Of a stretch of 64,000 bases of DNA, positions 10,550 to 19,530 are shown in pieces. The stretch is from Bacteroidota bacterium. GTDB lineage: Bacteria; Bacteroidota; Bacteroidia; Chitinophagales; Chitinophagaceae. The stretch spans positions 239,160-303,159 of the forward strand of contig JACPEA010000001.1 in the NCBI GenBank assembly GCA_016183765.1, written 5' to 3'. Made by a program: the position numbers and the translations under genes. Position 1 is the stretch's first letter. Every line of letters begins with the position of its first letter. The notes under the pieces are model-generated. The model saw nothing but the letters and a program-made list of their open reading frames with translations. It was not told the DNA's origin and did no database searches.

Positions 10550-12277
10550 TCAGGGCGCAAAACCCGCTACAGAATCGTCTCCTCTCTTATCTGCCACGGT
10601 TTCTTTTTTACCATTATTCAATACGCGGATGGCTTCGGTTCGGCCGATGGCGCCACGTTCTGTTACTTTATAGCCCATTGACTGCAATTGTTTTTTGGTC
10701 TCGGCATTAAAATCTTTTTCAATCATCACTTCATCCGGCAGCCATTGGTGGTGGAATTTGGGTTTGTTGATGGCATCATCTGCGTTCATGTTAAAGTCTA
10801 CCAGGTTCACAATGGCCTGGTATACCGATGTGGGGATGGTGGTTCCGCCCGGGGTTCCCACCACTACGAAGGGTTTGTTGTTTTTCAGCAACAGGGTGGG
10901 GGTCATGGAACTTAACATTCTTTTTCCGGGAACAATGGCATTGGCTTCACCGCCGATGGCGCCGTACATATTGGGCACCCCCGGTTTCACGCTGAAATCA
11001 TCCATTTCATTGTTCAGCAGGAATCCGGCGCCACCTACCACCGTTCTGCTGCCATAACCGCCATTCAAGGTGGTGGTGACCGCCACCATATTACCGGCTG
11101 CATCCATCACACTGAGGTGAGTAGTTTGTTCGCTTTCCTTGATCTGTCCTGCTTTTACGGTAGAGCTGCTGCCTGCTTTATCAGGAGTATAATCGCTCAT
11201 GCGCTGCTGGGCATATTCTTCGCTGGTCAAGGTCTTTACGGGGACATTGTAAAAGTCAGGGTCTCCCATGAATTCTGCACGGTCTGCATAAGCGCGGCGT
11301 TCAGCTTCTACCATCAGTTGCACCGATTTAGCCGTTTGAAAACCGTAACTACCTACAGGAAATTTCTCGATCATTTTCAGCATCTGTGCAATCAGGATAC
11401 CACCGCTGCTGGGTGGGGCAAAACTGATGACCTGGTGGCCACGGTAAGTGAATTCCAAAGGATTGCGCAGTTTGGCCGTATAGTTTTTCAGGTCATCAAG
11501 CGTGATGATACCATTGCCACGCTGCATTTCTTCCACGATCAGTCTGGCGGTCTCACCGGTATAAAATCCGGCAACGCCCTCTTTCTGTACCCTGCGTAAT
11601 GTGGCAGCCAGCTCTTTCTGCACCAGTGTGTCACCAGCTTTCCATTTGCCTTCTTTTACCAGGGCAGTGGGGCGGGTGCTGAATTTGAGAAAACTTTCGC
11701 GGGTGCTGTTCAGACTGCTGGCTTCCTTTTCGGTGATGGCGAATCCTTTTTCAGCCAGGTCTATCGCAGGCTGTATCAGCTCTCTGAATGGAAGTTTGGC
11801 ATAGGGCATGGTAGCAAACAATCCGGCAATGGTTCCGGGAATACCCGAAGCCAGGTGGCCACTTTGCGATAAGTTCAATTGTACATTCCCGTTTTTATCC
11901 AGGTACATATCGCGGTGGGCTTTTTCAGGTGCTGCTTCACGGTAGTCGATGCCGATCAGTTCACCATTGTTTTTCCTGCCCAGTAAAAAACCGCCACCAC
12001 CAATATTACCGGCGCCCGGATATACCACCGCCAGCGTTAGCTGTGTGGCAATGGCAGCATCAAAAGCATTCCCTCCCTTTTTCATCATAGCCGCACCAAC
12101 CAGGCTGGCCAGCGGATGGGCACTGCTGACAGCCGCTTTGCTGAAATCATTCTTCTTGACGATATGGTATTGATAGGGATTAATGGCTTTGCCGGGGCCT
12201 ATGATGGAGCGGACGGACTGTGCATCCAGGGAAAACTGGCTTCCCAATGCCAGTAGGCAGATGATTGTTTTTCTCAT
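10550..12277 (-). CDS. ggt: Gamma-glutamyltranspeptidase
   Basis: AAMMKKGGNAFDAAIATQLTLAVVYPGAGNIGGGGF; catalytic TTHLSVMDAAGNMVAVTTTLNGGYGSRTVVGGAGFLLNNEMDDF. Confidence 0.93.
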   Translation of the reverse strand: MRKTIICLLALGSQFSLDAQSVRSIIGPGKAINPYQYHIVKKNDFSKAAVSSAHPLASLVGAAMMKKGGNAFDAAIATQLTLAVVYPGAGNIGGGGFLLGRKNNGELIGIDYREAAPEKAHRDMYLDKNGNVQLNLSQSGHLASGIPGTIAGLFATMPYAKLPFRELIQPAIDLAEKGFAITEKEASSLNSTRESFLKFSTRPTALVKEGKWKAGDTLVQKELAATLRRVQKEGVAGFYTGETARLIVEEMQRGNGIITLDDLKNYTAKLRNPLEFTYRGHQVISFAPPSSGGILIAQMLKMIEKFPVGSYGFQTAKSVQLMVEAERRAYADRAEFMGDPDFYNVPVKTLTSEEYAQQRMSDYTPDKAGSSSTVKAGQIKESEQTTHLSVMDAAGNMVAVTTTLNGGYGSRTVVGGAGFLLNNEMDDFSVKPGVPNMYGAIGGEANAIVPGKRMLSSMTPTLLLKNNKPFVVVGTPGGTTIPTSVYQAIVNLVDFNMNADDAINKPKFHHQWLPDEVMIEKDFNAETKKQLQSMGYKVTERGAIGRTEAIRVLNNGKKETVADKRGDDSVAGFAP

Positions 12278-12401
12278 GGCAGAAAATTACTGCTTTTTGG
12301 AACACTTCAAAGCCTCTTGGCATAGCTGTGTAAAAAAAACTCAGGGATAATGTCCGCTGGCTTTTTTTCTTGCCTACATTCACTGATTATTTATTACCTA
12401 T

Positions 12402-14897
12402 ATGAAGAGATTATTATCCGTTTTTGCACTCCTGTTGCTGGCTGATATTGTTTTTGCACAGGCTTTGCAAAGTCCAGAACAGTACATGGGTTATAAGATC
12501 GGCACCCGCTACACCCGTCATCATAAAGTGGTTGACTATTTCCGGTCAGTGGCGCAGGCCAGGCCGGATATGGTAAAGATTGAAAAATACGGAGAGACCA
12601 ATGAAGGCAGGGAACTGATCGTAGCGTATATCGCATCGCCGGAGAACCTGCAGAAACTGGAATTGATCCGGACAAATAACCTCGGATTGACAGGCCTTGC
12701 CGCTAACAAAGGGACTACGGAAAATGCACCTGCGATCGTTTGGTTGAGTTATAATGTACATGGTAATGAAACTTCTTCCTCAGAAGCTGCCCTGCTTACG
12801 CTGTGGTCGCTCGTGGATCCGGGGAATACACAGACTAAGGAATGGTTAAAAAATACCGTGGTGATCATGGATCCCTGTATCAACCCTGATGGACGAGACA
12901 GGTATGTGAACTGGTACAACGGTATGGTGGGAACCCATTTTAATCCCGACCCCGCAGCCCGTGAACATGCTGAACCCTGGCCCGGCGGGAGAACGAACCA
13001 CTATAATTTTGACCTGAACAGGGACTGGGCCTGGCAAACACAGGTGGAGAGCCAGCAACGCATCAAAAAATACAACCAGTGGATGCCGCAGGTGCACGTA
13101 GATTTTCATGAACAGGGGATCAACGAGCCTTATTATTTTGCTCCCGCAGCTGACCCGCTGCATGAAGTGATCACTCCCTGGCAGAAAGACTTCCAGGTAT
13201 TGATCGGTAAGAACAATGCCAGGTATTTCGACCGCAATGGCTGGTTGTTCTTCACCAAGGAAAGATTCGATCTGCTGTATCCTTCTTACGGAGATACCTA
13301 TCCCATTTACAACGGCGCCATCGGTATGACTTTTGAACAGGGTGGCGGTTCGCGTGGCGGACTGGGCGTCATCAACGAAGACGGGGATACGCTCACCCTG
13401 CTGGACCGTGCCACACACCATTATACAACGGGCTTGTCCACTATTGAAACCGCTTCGCAGAACCACCAGAAATTGCTGGATGAGTTCAGAAAATATTTTG
13501 ACGACGGCCAGGCCGGTAAGATCGGTGAATACAAGACCTATGTGATGACTTCCCGGGATGAGAACAAGATCAAAGCGGTGATGAAACTGCTGGATCAGAA
13601 TGGGATCGCCCATGCTTCCCTGACCAATAAAAATTTCCGTGGATATAACTATACTACCGGCAAGGAGGATGCATATGCAGATGAGGGCTACCATGTGGCG
13701 GTGAGCGCTTTTCAGCCAAGGTCGGCCATGGCGAAGGTATTGCTGGAACCAAAAACGGTTGTTACAGATTCCAACACCTACGATATTACCGCCTGGAGCT
13801 TGCCATATGCTTACGGTGTTAAAGGGTATGCAGTCAAAGAAAAACTGGAACTGACCCATGCGGTAAAACTGTCCGCTGCACTGAATGAGGCCAGCTCTTC
13901 CTACGGGGTGTTGATCCCGTACCAATCGTTCAATGCTGCCAAAGCATTGGCGTATATGCTGAAGAATGGGGTGAAAGTCCGCTTTGCCGAAAAACCTTTT
14001 ACCTATAAAGGCCGCAGTTTTGATCGCGGTACTTTGATCATCCTGAAAACCAGTAACCCTGCCAACTGGAATGAAGTGGCTAACGAAGCCTGCCAACGCT
14101 TCAACCTGCAGCCAATAGCAGTGGAAACCGGGTTCATGGATAAGGGGAGCGATTTTGGCTCACCGGATGTCAAGATCATCAACAGCGCTTTACGGGTAGC
14201 CATGCTGACCGGCGATCAGACCGCATCCGGCAGTGCGGGGGAAGTATGGCATTTCTTTGAAAAGCAACTGGAATACCCCATCACCCTGCTCAATGCTGCA
14301 GACCTGGCGCGGATCAATATCCGTAATTACCAGGTGCTCATCATGCCTGATGGTAATTACCGCGTTCTTAACGACAAGTCCGTAGCAGATAAACTGAAGG
14401 ATTTTGTCCGCAATGGTGGTAAACTCATTGCTTTGGATAATGCAGTTTCCTTATTGGCTTCTTCGGACTGGGGCATCAAACTGAAAGACGATAAAACAGA
14501 AGAGAAAGGCGAATATGCCCATGTGAAAAAATATGCAGACCGAGAAAGCCAGTACCTGACCAATTCCATCCCCGGGGCTATTTACAAACTGGAGCTGGAC
14601 AATACCCATCCGCTGGGTTTTGGGTACCCGGATCATTATTTTACCCTGAAGCAGGATGGCAATATGTTTGAATTCATGAAAGATGGCTGGAATGTGGGAG
14701 TGATGAAAAAAGATGCCTATGTGACCGGTTTTGCCGGCAGCAAACTGAAGCCGAAACTGAAAGACGGTGTGGTGTTTGGTGTACAGGATATGGGTAGCGG
14801 TAACGTGATCTATTTTGCTGAGAACCCGCTTTTCCGGAACTTCTGGGAGAACGGAAAGTTATTGATCTGTAACGCGGTTTTCCTGGTAGGACAATAA
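12402..14897 (+). CDS. M14-family zinc carboxypeptidase, secreted
   Basis: Signal peptide; NVHGNETSSSEAALL, INPDGRDRYVNWYN, DFHEQG. Confidence 0.88.
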   Translation: MKRLLSVFALLLLADIVFAQALQSPEQYMGYKIGTRYTRHHKVVDYFRSVAQARPDMVKIEKYGETNEGRELIVAYIASPENLQKLELIRTNNLGLTGLAANKGTTENAPAIVWLSYNVHGNETSSSEAALLTLWSLVDPGNTQTKEWLKNTVVIMDPCINPDGRDRYVNWYNGMVGTHFNPDPAAREHAEPWPGGRTNHYNFDLNRDWAWQTQVESQQRIKKYNQWMPQVHVDFHEQGINEPYYFAPAADPLHEVITPWQKDFQVLIGKNNARYFDRNGWLFFTKERFDLLYPSYGDTYPIYNGAIGMTFEQGGGSRGGLGVINEDGDTLTLLDRATHHYTTGLSTIETASQNHQKLLDEFRKYFDDGQAGKIGEYKTYVMTSRDENKIKAVMKLLDQNGIAHASLTNKNFRGYNYTTGKEDAYADEGYHVAVSAFQPRSAMAKVLLEPKTVVTDSNTYDITAWSLPYAYGVKGYAVKEKLELTHAVKLSAALNEASSSYGVLIPYQSFNAAKALAYMLKNGVKVRFAEKPFTYKGRSFDRGTLIILKTSNPANWNEVANEACQRFNLQPIAVETGFMDKGSDFGSPDVKIINSALRVAMLTGDQTASGSAGEVWHFFEKQLEYPITLLNAADLARINIRNYQVLIMPDGNYRVLNDKSVADKLKDFVRNGGKLIALDNAVSLLASSDWGIKLKDDKTEEKGEYAHVKKYADRESQYLTNSIPGAIYKLELDNTHPLGFGYPDHYFTLKQDGNMFEFMKDGWNVGVMKKDAYVTGFAGSKLKPKLKDGVVFGVQDMGSGNVIYFAENPLFRNFWENGKLLICNAVFLVGQ

Positions 14898-14915
14898 ATG
14901 CGTATTGTTTTGTGA

Positions 14916-14945
14916 AAAGTCAGGTCCCCGGACCTGACTTTTTTG
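14916..14945 (+). terminator. Rho-independent terminator
   Basis: aagtcaggtcc/ggacctgactt stem followed by a T-run. Confidence 0.85.
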
Positions 14946-15007
14946 TTAAACGGCTGAGTCAATTACACAACTAAGACTATCTTCGAAAACATTTAAATCC
15001 TGGTTGC

Positions 15008-17500
15008 ATGCGCTTTCAAACAAAAGCATTTTGGGTTCTTCTTGCGATGTGCTGGATATCCGGTACCGACGCTTATTCGCAGACGCCGGTAACAAACAGC
15101 AGCACCGATATCTACCTGCAGTTGAAAAAACTGAATGTGTTGGGCAGTGTATTGTATGTAGCTGCTCATCCGGATGATGAGAACAATGGTTTTTTGCCGT
15201 ACCTGGCTAAAGAAAAACAGTATCGGACAGGATACCTGAGTCTGACAAGAGGTGATGGCGGCCAGAACCTGATCGGCAGCGAACAGGGAATAGAATTGGG
15301 ATTGATCCGTACACAGGAATTACTGGCAGCCAGAAGGATCGATGGGGCTGAGCAGTATTTCAGCCGTGCCTATGAATTCGGGTTCAGTAAGAGTGCAGAG
15401 GAAGCGTTGCGTATCTGGAACAAGGAAAAGATACTGAGCGATGTTGTCTGGATGATCCGCAGGTTTCAGCCTGATATCATCATCACTCGTTTCCCCGGAG
15501 ACGCAAGAGCAGGGCATGGGCATCATGCAGCCTCCTCGATCATAGCCCAGGAAGCTTACTCGGCTGCGGCAGATCCCAAGCGTTTTCCGGAGCAGTTCCA
15601 GTATGGAGTAAAACCCTGGCAGGCCAAACGGATACTCTGGAATACCTTCAATTTTGGCGGGAATAATACGACTTCCAACGACCAGTTTAAAATGGATGTT
15701 GGGGGATACAATGCTTTATTGGGTAAGAGTTACGGTGAACTGGGAGGCGAGGCACGTACCATGCACAAGAGCCAGGGCGAAGGAAGGCCACGCAGGAGAG
15801 GACAGGTATACGAATTCTTCCAGACCCTTGGAGGCGACGCACCCAAAAATGATCTGATGGATGGCATCATCACCGGTTGGAAAAGGATCCCGGGTGGTGA
15901 GCAGGTGGAAGTGCAGGTCAATAAAATTCTTGCGCAATACCAGTTCGAGAAACCAGAAGCTTCTGTTCCGGCGCTGGTGCAATTATACCGTACCATAAAA
16001 AAATTACCTGCAGGTAACTGGCGCGATAAAAAACTGGAAGAGACACAAGCGCTCATTGAAGCCTGTTCGGCGCTGTTTACCGAAGCTACTACTGCGCAGG
16101 AGACCGTTGTACAGGGCGATCTGCTGAACATCAGTTTTTTCCTCAATAAAAGAAGGGAGGTGAATGCCAGTCTGAAACAGGTAGTGCTGGAAAAGTTTGA
16201 CACCACGGTAAATCTGCCACTGGCATTGAATAACAATGTAACGATCAATAAAATGTATCGGGTATCGCCAGATAAAAAGATATCGCAACCGTATTGGCTG
16301 GAATATCCCAAAGCTGAGGGCATATTTGATGTGCGGGATCAGCTACTGATCGGAAAAGCCGAGAACGATCCGGCTTATGAAGCCGTTTATACAGTGGAGA
16401 TAGAAGGGGAGGATTTTATGATCAGGCGACCCATACAATACAAAGTGGTGGATCCCACTAAGGGCGAATTGTATCAGCCACTGGTGATATTGCCCGCCGT
16501 AGAAGCCAACTTTACCAAAGAGAATTTTGTGTCATTGAATGGTTCCCCTGTAAAAGTGGCCGTTCAGATAAAACAGAATACTCCACAAACCGCACAGATA
16601 GAGGCAGACATAGCCGGGGCCCAACTCTTTAAACAGGAACCTTTGGTGATGAACGGACAAGGATCCGGGGGCAATAAAGAGATGGTATCTGTATTCACAC
16701 CATTGAACAAATTGCAGAATCAGAAAGAAGAACTCACGTTGGTTCCTGCCAAGGCCCATGTATTGAATGGGAGCACCCGGGTGATCTCCTATGACCATAT
16801 TCCCACCATCACTTACTTCGCTCCGGCAAAAGCCAACCTCTTGAATTTAAACATCAAGACGGTCGGTAAAAAAGTGGGATATATAGTTGGTGCCGGTGAT
16901 AAAGTGCCGCAGGCACTGGAGCAACTGGGGTATGAAGTAAAGATACTTTCCGAAGAAAACCTCTCGATAGAGCAGCTCGCCCAGTTCGATGCAGTGATAT
17001 TGGGGATACGGGCCAGCAATATCTATGAATTTCTGACCAATAATAATGAGGTGCTGAGCAAGTATGTAGAGAACGGCGGCAATCTGATTGCGCAATACGT
17101 GAAAAGTAATACGGTCGGCAATAAGCGGATCAAACTGGGGCCATATCCCTTTTCGATCAGTTCGGGTTCACGCGTAACGGAAGAAGGTGCCCAGGTCAGT
17201 TTTCTGCTGCCCGAACATCCGGTATTGAATTACCCCAACAAGATCACCGATAAAGATTTCGAAGGCTGGGTTCAGGAACGCAGCACTTACCAGGTTGATC
17301 AGGCCGACCCGCATTATGTGATGCCGCTGGCCATGCATGATACCGGCGAAAAACAAAGCAACGGGAGCCTTGCCATCACCCCCTACGGGAAAGGTAATTT
17401 TGCGTATGTTAGCCTGGTGTTGTTCAGGCAACTGCCGGCGGGTGTGCCCGGCGCTTACCGTTTGCTGGCCAACCTGATTGCCTTACCTAAAAATCCATAA
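15008..17500 (+). CDS. Secreted PIG-L (LmbE) family deacetylase with long C-terminal extension
   Basis: Signal peptide; AAHPDDENNGFLPYLAKEKQYRTGYLSLTRGDGGQNLIG; HGHHAASSII. Confidence 0.88.
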   Translation: MRFQTKAFWVLLAMCWISGTDAYSQTPVTNSSTDIYLQLKKLNVLGSVLYVAAHPDDENNGFLPYLAKEKQYRTGYLSLTRGDGGQNLIGSEQGIELGLIRTQELLAARRIDGAEQYFSRAYEFGFSKSAEEALRIWNKEKILSDVVWMIRRFQPDIIITRFPGDARAGHGHHAASSIIAQEAYSAAADPKRFPEQFQYGVKPWQAKRILWNTFNFGGNNTTSNDQFKMDVGGYNALLGKSYGELGGEARTMHKSQGEGRPRRRGQVYEFFQTLGGDAPKNDLMDGIITGWKRIPGGEQVEVQVNKILAQYQFEKPEASVPALVQLYRTIKKLPAGNWRDKKLEETQALIEACSALFTEATTAQETVVQGDLLNISFFLNKRREVNASLKQVVLEKFDTTVNLPLALNNNVTINKMYRVSPDKKISQPYWLEYPKAEGIFDVRDQLLIGKAENDPAYEAVYTVEIEGEDFMIRRPIQYKVVDPTKGELYQPLVILPAVEANFTKENFVSLNGSPVKVAVQIKQNTPQTAQIEADIAGAQLFKQEPLVMNGQGSGGNKEMVSVFTPLNKLQNQKEELTLVPAKAHVLNGSTRVISYDHIPTITYFAPAKANLLNLNIKTVGKKVGYIVGAGDKVPQALEQLGYEVKILSEENLSIEQLAQFDAVILGIRASNIYEFLTNNNEVLSKYVENGGNLIAQYVKSNTVGNKRIKLGPYPFSISSGSRVTEEGAQVSFLLPEHPVLNYPNKITDKDFEGWVQERSTYQVDQADPHYVMPLAMHDTGEKQSNGSLAITPYGKGNFAYVSLVLFRQLPAGVPGAYRLLANLIALPKNP

Positions 17501-17502
17501 CC

Positions 17503-17655
17503 ATGCAGCCAAGAAAAAGAATCGGTTTTGTAACGTTGATATTACTGGGATTGGGTATCGGTATATTCCTGAAAAATGTAAAGATCGGCCTGATTGTTGG
17601 ACTGATGCTTGGCTTGCTGGCGGGTGGTATCCTCAGCAGCAGCACCAAAAAATGA
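17503..17655 (+). CDS. Small membrane protein (50 aa), not in supplied ORF track
   Basis: MQPRKRIGFVTLILLGLGIGIFLKNVKIGLIVGLMLGLLAGGILSSSTKK; starts 2 nt after the PIG-L stop. Confidence 0.6.
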   Translation: MQPRKRIGFVTLILLGLGIGIFLKNVKIGLIVGLMLGLLAGGILSSSTKK

Positions 17656-17686
17656 GTTGTTCTTGTAAAGCATTCATGTCAATACT

Positions 17687-17806
17687 ATGACCCATAAAGA
17701 CAAAATACCCGTTTTTTCCTCCTGGCGCCGCTGGTATTTCTTTGTGTTGCTGGTACTGGTGCTGCTCATTATCTTTTTTGCCTGGTTTACTAAATTCTTT
17801 TCATGA
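17687..17806 (+). CDS. Small single-TM protein (39 aa) translationally coupled to SSS symporter; not in supplied ORF track
   Basis: MTHKDKIPVFSSWRRWYFFVLLVLVLLIIFFAWFTKFFS; stop overlaps symporter start (ATGA). Confidence 0.65.
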   Translation: MTHKDKIPVFSSWRRWYFFVLLVLVLLIIFFAWFTKFFS

Positions 17807-19530
17807 GCCAACTTGACTGGATAGTACTGGGGATCACACTCACGGCCATCATTGCCTATGGCCTGTACAAAAGCCGGACAGCCAAAAACCTGGAGGGCTA
17901 TTTCCTGAGCGATAGGAGCATGCCCTGGTACCTCGTGCTGTTAAGTATCATGGGAACACAGGCCAGCGCCATTACCTTCCTTTCCGCACCCGGACAGGCT
18001 TTCACAGATGGGATGCGTTTTGTGCAATATTATTTCGGATTACCGATTGCTATGGTGATACTTTGTATCACGTTTGTACCCCTGTTTCATAAAATAAAAG
18101 TGTTCACGGCGTACGAGTTCCTGGAGCAGAGGTTTGACCTGAAGACAAGAACTTTTACTTCCTTCCTCTTCCTGTTGTCGAGGGGCTTGTCAACCGGTAT
18201 CAGTATTTATGCACCTTCCATTATCCTGTCTTCTTTACTGGGCTGGGATATTTTCTGGACCAATATCGTCATGGGTGGTCTGCTCATCATCTATACGGTC
18301 AGTGGCGGTGCCAAAGCTGTGGCGTATACCCAGCAGTTACAACTGCTCATCATTTTTGCGGGTATGTTCGTGGCGGGCTATTGTATTGTTCATTACCTGC
18401 CGGAAGGAGTTGGGTTCACTGATGCATTGAAAGTAAGTGGTGCCTCAGGTAAGTTGAATGTGATCACTACCGGGATCTCTTCGGAAGGATTTGATTGGAA
18501 GGACCGGTACAATATCATCAGTGGTGTGATCGGAGGTTTTTTTCTGGCGCTGTCCTATTTTGGTACCGACCAGTCGCAGGTGGGCCGTTATCTTACGGCT
18601 AAAGATAATACGGAAAGCCGTATCGGTTTGCTCATGAATGGACTGGTAAAAGTGCCGATGCAGTTCCTGATCCTGTTATTGGGTGCCATGCTGTTTACGT
18701 TTTATCAGTTCAATTCTTCGCCGGTGTTTTTCAATAAGGCCGTTGCCGAAAAAGCGATGACCACGGGTTACAGGGATTCGCTCGCCGGTATCGAAAAAAA
18801 ATTCAATGAACAGCAACTGGTGCAGCAAAAGCTGAGCAGGAATTATGTGATTGATAAAAAAGAAAATTACAAGGACAGCCTTCGCGAAGGGTCTGTGAAA
18901 CTTTCTGCCATTCAGAAAGAATATAAGACCGTCCTGAAGAAGGCCCTGCCGGCTGATGATACCAGCGATACCAATTATATCTTTCTCAGGTTTGTGGTCG
19001 ATTTCCTGCCCAAAGGTATCGTGGGCCTTCTCATTGCCATCATTTTCCTGGCTGCCTGGGGGTCTATTGCAGCAGCACTCAACTCACTGGCTTCCTGCAC
19101 CATGATCGATTTTCATGTGCGCTTCCGCGGCTCTGCCTACGATAGTACCAATGCAGTAAAATGTGCTGATGAATACAAACTGTCTAAATATTATACGTTA
19201 GGTTGGGGTATTTTCTGCATCATCACTGCAGAATTCGCCACCGGTATGGGGAGCCTGATTGAGGCGGTGAATGTGCTGGGATCACTTTTCTATGGTGTGA
19301 TACTTGGTATTTTCCTGGTTGCGTTCTACTGTAAAAAAGTAGGGGGTAATGCCGTCTTTATTGCCGCAATCATCGGTGAGCTGGTGGTCATCGCTTTTTT
19401 CCTCATGGACAAATACAATGTGATCGGCCTCGGATTCCTCTGGCTGAATGTGGTTGGCGCCGTGGCGGTGGTATTGCTGGCCTTAGTGCTGCAGCTCTTT
19501 ATGAGAAAGCAATTAGTAACTGCTAATTAA
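17803..19530 (+). CDS. Sodium:solute symporter (SSS family)
   Basis: SDRSMPWYLVLLSIMGTQASAITFLSAPGQAF; YTVSGGAKAVAYTQQLQ; LSYFGTDQSQVGRYL. Confidence 0.92.
   Translation: MSQLDWIVLGITLTAIIAYGLYKSRTAKNLEGYFLSDRSMPWYLVLLSIMGTQASAITFLSAPGQAFTDGMRFVQYYFGLPIAMVILCITFVPLFHKIKVFTAYEFLEQRFDLKTRTFTSFLFLLSRGLSTGISIYAPSIILSSLLGWDIFWTNIVMGGLLIIYTVSGGAKAVAYTQQLQLLIIFAGMFVAGYCIVHYLPEGVGFTDALKVSGASGKLNVITTGISSEGFDWKDRYNIISGVIGGFFLALSYFGTDQSQVGRYLTAKDNTESRIGLLMNGLVKVPMQFLILLLGAMLFTFYQFNSSPVFFNKAVAEKAMTTGYRDSLAGIEKKFNEQQLVQQKLSRNYVIDKKENYKDSLREGSVKLSAIQKEYKTVLKKALPADDTSDTNYIFLRFVVDFLPKGIVGLLIAIIFLAAWGSIAAALNSLASCTMIDFHVRFRGSAYDSTNAVKCADEYKLSKYYTLGWGIFCIITAEFATGMGSLIEAVNVLGSLFYGVILGIFLVAFYCKKVGGNAVFIAAIIGELVVIAFFLMDKYNVIGLGFLWLNVVGAVAVVLLALVLQLFMRKQLVTAN

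Follow-up and report, generated by a model that had tools for sequence, protein, structure and literature searches.

A one-helix membrane protein encoded next to a SiaT/SGLT-like sodium symporter, a probable accessory subunit in the Bacteroidota

Introduction

A 39-residue membrane protein (ORF39), encoded immediately upstream of a solute:sodium symporter (SSS) gene in a member of the Chitinophagaceae, is probably an accessory subunit with a single helix that serves this SiaT/SGLT-like transporter in trans. The gene lies in a window of 64,000 nucleotides, the whole stretch of DNA that was analysed, where gene finders had missed it. Profile matches indicate that the family is Bacteroidota-wide and that it is covered by neither a Pfam nor an NCBIfam model, and our literature search found no paper on the protein. 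A second small gene at the same locus (ORF50) is a separate matter; it accompanies a deacetylase and, going by its matches, is essentially confined to one bacterial family.

Results

The locus and its neighbours

The initial annotation had placed two short reading frames, of 50 and 39 codons, in the interval that separates a PIG-L deacetylase gene from an SSS symporter gene, the first starting 2 nt past the deacetylase stop and the second overlapping the symporter start by ATGA. The coordinates bear this out (Table 1), as do the Pfam assignments of both flanking genes. The deacetylase scores 69.4 bits against PF02585 (cut-off 28.2) and both zinc motifs, AHPDDE and GHGHH (HxxH), are found in its translation, as in PIG-L enzymes; the symporter scores 102 bits against PF00474 (cut-off 22.8), which places it in the SSS/SLC5 family. 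Exactly the same type of 4-nt overlap is seen in 61 of the 73 named loci with ORF39, so that translational coupling of the two genes is probably real.

Table 1. Features of the locus, in positions of the window
Feature	Coordinates	Strand	Basis
M14 zinc carboxypeptidase, C-terminal ThuA/GATase-like region	12402..14897	+	PF00246, 75 bits
PIG-L/LmbE-type deacetylase, 830 aa, probable signal peptide	15008..17500 (stop TAA 17498-17500)	+	PF02585
ORF50, 50 aa, probable two-helix hairpin membrane protein	17503..17655 (ATG 17503)	+	frame conservation, dN/dS
ORF39, 39 aa, single-helix membrane protein, probable symporter accessory subunit	17687..17806 (ATG 17687, stop TGA 17804-17806)	+	
ATGA overlap of ORF39 stop and symporter start	17803..17806	+	read as translational coupling
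SSS (solute:sodium symporter) transporter, 575 aa, SiaT/SGLT-like	17803..19530 (ATG 17803)	+	PF00474

The M14 gene is probably the upstream member of an operon shared with the PIG-L, ORF50, ORF39 and SSS genes. The order M14-(PIG-L)-ORF50-ORF39-SSS is seen again in relatives, and 26 of 80 named loci have an M14 gene nearby. Beyond it, on the opposite strand, comes a gamma-glutamyltransferase gene; that this gene, the M14 carboxypeptidase and the deacetylase adjoin (positions 10550-17500), as they do in about one third of the named loci, hints at a common periplasmic breakdown pathway. A DUF2911 gene is also often found near the operon (L126, L130, L137, L142, L225-L236), and in Pedobacter and Chryseobacterium it lies on the same strand, directly 3' of the symporter. 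In two loci a small insertion of two genes, similar to a PIN-domain toxin-antitoxin pair, separates deacetylase and ORF39 (L130:3978-4677 and L137:3452-4181), ORF39 remaining with the symporter.

Two genuine small genes

All 13 aligned loci of the same genus retain both frames, the closest named relatives being Sediminibacterium. Against the nearest relative (G226), dN/dS is 0.08 for ORF39 and 0.03 for ORF50, while other comparable pairs mostly give 0.06-0.35 (the ORF50 values against L003 and L004 were set aside, as their alignments are off by two residues). Kept frames, ratios well below 1 and the phylum-wide presence of ORF39 take the two frames beyond chance, and by these measures they are genuine genes under purifying selection. 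Lack of conservation, frameshifts or a dN/dS near 1, which would have spoken against them, were looked for and did not occur. Two loci of the same genus (L014, L015) have neither gene, the deacetylase stop abutting the symporter start.

Spread of ORF39 and its tie to one symporter

A search profile built from 21 sequences finds ORF39 in 128 of 249 genomes of the order and in 57 of 297 across the phylum. Among named loci it is present in at least 73 of 80, including those of Chitinophaga, Pedobacter, Chryseobacterium, Dyadobacter and Spirosoma. Within the 249 genomes, 120 of 131 matches lie on the same strand as an ortholog of the symporter and 0-335 nt upstream of it, with the two genes overlapping in 50 of the 120. 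The other 11 comprise three weak, false matches inside long genes (in G268, a Wzc-like protein; G162:C86; and G047:C426), six on fragmented contigs and two real exceptions (G265 and G078), discussed below. No fusion of ORF39 with the symporter was found among the matches, the long open frames being either false matches or out of frame with the symporter.

Counted by genome, and without correction for phylogeny, which the Fisher test on this co-occurrence likewise does not take into account, 124 of the 249 have both genes, 25 the symporter only, three ORF39 only and 97 neither. The three genomes with ORF39 only are all draft MAGs with a contig broken at the locus, and apart from them genomes without this symporter gave no convincing match; nor did a search with a broader profile (A4) turn up ORF39 in 19 genomes that lack the symporter. 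When the regions of the 25 symporter-only genomes were read, 13 proved to have a more divergent ORF39 in the same place, about 11 are truly without it and one is cut by a contig end. The symporter-positive loci L014, L015, L178 and L180 also have no recognisable ORF39. Since the symporters of such lineages are no different in length, which leads us to reject the idea that the loss is offset by a longer transporter, ORF39 is dispensable in some lineages. The association is specific to this symporter clade, because no ORF39-like frame precedes any of the other five SSF genes of the source genome.

A converse case may be mentioned on its own account: at L142:3454-3893 deacetylase and ORF39 are present while the symporter is reduced to an N-terminal remnant, and this genome has probably lost its transporter recently.

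One conserved face on a single helix

Members of the family are 31-56 aa long and have one hydrophobic stretch, with the core (P)xxxSWxxWYxxVxxxLxxxIxxFxxxTxxF. In the core alignment of 155 sequences (effective number about 117) the best-conserved positions are 13, 17, 20, 24, 28, 31 and 35 (W13-Y17-V20-L24-I28-F31-T35), and their spacing of three to four residues places them on one face of an alpha helix. Y17 is invariant and W13 is kept in 95% of sequences, figures that are somewhat inflated at these two positions as the placement score favours the motif. At 100 degrees per residue the conservation moment has its maximum; the permutation test gives p = 0.001 over residues 17-35, 0.0001 over residues 13-35 and, when residues 19-33 are taken alone, 0.02. 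Lysine and arginine number 2.7 before the helix versus 0.8 after it, and a topology with the N-terminus inside and the C-terminus outside is therefore likely. A bound subunit would be expected to show just this, a helix with a single conserved face, and to be found beside a single transporter.

The symporter

The solved chains nearest to the symporter by sequence are SiaT (5nv9), SMVT, SMCT1, NIS and SGLT1/2. An ortholog was modelled with AlphaFold, confidently over the symporter itself; its best fold match is SiaT, with NIS and SGLT also at the top. The construct came from a natural in-frame locus (L185) with the ORF39 stop read through, an artificial tether that we do not claim to exist in the cell; ORF39-only rows were excluded from its alignment, since in a mixed alignment they fell inside the symporter. 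In this tethered model the ORF39 helix has a pLDDT of only about 50-62, too low to place it on the symporter. Taking the PIG-L neighbour together with the SiaT-like fold, we would guess that the substrate is an N-acyl amino sugar or its deacetylated product. One symporter helix, with FLAAWGSIAAALNS (window about 19046-19100), has diverged: the genus has AAWGSIAAALNS where the clade consensus is ASMSSxAxELNA. The divergent stretch AAWGSIAAALNS lies about where the Na2 site is usually found, and the change may have altered ion coupling.

Comparison with known small partners of transporters

Neither ORF39 nor ORF50 gave a convincing match to a Pfam or NCBIfam family. Small membrane proteins whose genes immediately precede an SSS gene are familiar, as DUF485 (YjcH with ActP), YhdT with PanF, DUF3311 and DUF4212. 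These are longer, two-helix proteins, whereas ORF39 has a single hydrophobic stretch, and none of the four families matched ORF39 or 20 of its homologues in the Pfam and NCBIfam searches. Nearer in size is NF045580, the 33-aa 'symporter small accessory protein' of NCBI, a tiny single-helix protein annotated as a symporter accessory protein, the genes of which adjoin SSS genes just as those of ORF39 do (120 of 131 matches). The likeness is one of presumed function only: the motifs differ, no sequence match links the two families, and the NF045580 profile (cut-off 35 bits) hit none of 21 ORF39 family members at E<=0.1 while a control peptide gave 78 bits. The profile finds nothing above its cut-off in 148 Bacteroidota genomes, and does match in Methanosarcina acetivorans.

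A eukaryotic parallel to the proposed role is MAP17 (PDZK1IP1), which likewise crosses the membrane with one helix, sits on a transporter of the same SLC5/SSS superfamily as the symporter and touches TM13 of human SGLT2 (PMC10803289). The modelled fold of an ORF39-associated symporter matches the SGLT2-MAP17 structures. Homology with MAP17 is another matter, the ORF39 profile having found no PDB chain up to E=1 in a set that included the SGLT-MAP17 entries. The bacterial modulators of fewer than 50 residues described in the portion of a 2023 review drawn on here (AcrZ with AcrB, MgtS, MgtU, MntS; PMC10710835) resemble ORF39 in size, in having one helix and in their inferred action on a transporter, but they act on other transporter superfamilies, and that portion of the review names no small protein for a bacterial SLC5-type symporter (PMC10710835). 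As a kind, small SSS accessory proteins are thus already known; the ORF39 family itself is new, lying, to judge from these searches, outside every described family. There is a good probability that ORF39 works as they do.

ORF50

ORF50 has two hydrophobic stretches separated by KNVK, the second with a glycine zipper (GxxxGxxxGG), a pattern which suggests a tightly packed hairpin. It was found in 39 of the 249 genomes of the order, essentially within the Chitinophagaceae; in 34 of the 39 it lies within 1 kb upstream of the symporter, typically right behind the deacetylase. One genome (G228) retains deacetylase and ORF50 without symporter or ORF39. Within this family the hairpin accompanies the secreted deacetylase, of which, more tentatively, it is perhaps a membrane partner. 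At L210:7849-8003 an ORF50-like frame stands where ORF39 would be, overlapping the symporter start.

Discussion

We infer for ORF39 its translation, its binding, the site of that binding and its effect, along the following lines. The gene would be translated into a protein that spans the inner membrane once, its N-terminus on the inside to judge from the charges, and this protein would bind in trans to the SSS symporter of the next gene. Coupling through ATGA would provide the two proteins in matched amounts. The face W13-Y17-V20-L24-I28-F31-T35 would pack on a transmembrane helix of the symporter, and ORF39 would then support the stability, the membrane insertion or the transport cycle of its partner, as MAP17 does for SGLT2. 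A more ambitious picture would make ORF39 a phylum-wide subunit of a Na+ symporter, consisting of one helix and equivalent in bacteria to MAP17 on SGLT2, and would have ORF39 and ORF50 in the Chitinophagaceae keep the secreted deacetylase and the symporter together, the deacetylated product passing straight into the importer; taken as a whole, it strikes us as improbable.

The role of the protein could also be conceived otherwise. ORF39 might be a turnover adaptor, shielding the symporter from a membrane protease such as FtsH or delivering it there, rather than a stoichiometric subunit. The same genomic pattern would be compatible with this, and such a mode is known at this size, as with MgtR and MgtU for MgtB in the part of the review used here (PMC10710835). 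A subunit accounts better than a conditional degradation tag for the coupled, roughly equal synthesis and for the constitutive co-inheritance, and we hold the adaptor to be quite improbable.

We consider it more doubtful still that ORF39 serves the deacetylase, or a deacetylase-transporter complex, and not the symporter itself. Deacetylase, ORF39 and symporter are usually consecutive and, as the deacetylase is present in 155 of the 249 genomes and the symporter in 149, nearly the same set, linkage alone cannot separate the candidate partners. The separation is possible where the genome has been rearranged: ORF39 is still directly upstream of the symporter in 25 genomes that have the deacetylase elsewhere, on which ground we reject the deacetylase as its partner, and six genomes that have the deacetylase and no detected symporter ortholog (G034, G228, G246, G135, G173, G243) are without ORF39. 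The proposal in the initial annotation, an accessory subunit of a de-N-acetylation and uptake system, thus divides in two: the conservation of ORF39 and its tie to the symporter are what one would expect of an accessory subunit, while the de-N-acetylation part does not stand, given these same genomes. Physical association of ORF39 with the symporter is what we infer from the pattern.

Least probable is a cis-acting leader frame, the translation of which would open the symporter start while the peptide itself has no function: the widely kept ATGA overlap would suit it, but selection acts on the amino acids of ORF39 themselves, many copies have no start overlap (with gaps of up to 335 nt), and conserved copies exist away from the symporter in three lineages, so that as a main explanation it is rejected. 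In two of these lineages (G265, G078) ORF39 is on another contig than the symporter; in the third, from another part of the phylum (G544), a lone ORF39 has kept its sequence with the symporter elsewhere in the genome. A purely cis-acting leader is therefore excluded in those genomes, and the unlinked copies are the strongest sign that the ORF39 peptide would work in trans.

The accessory subunit, if this is what ORF39 is, would matter beyond the locus described here. As a model of Na+-coupled transport the SSS/SLC5 family is central, and its bacterial members are as a rule produced and examined on their own; for this clade, functional or structural study without the one-helix subunit would be incomplete. 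The pair of ORF39 and symporter would also offer a simple bacterial system in which to ask what subunits of the MAP17 type do. As the gene is shorter than common length cut-offs allow and lacks a family model, a curated one built on the present sequences could make it annotatable in a good number of Bacteroidota genomes.
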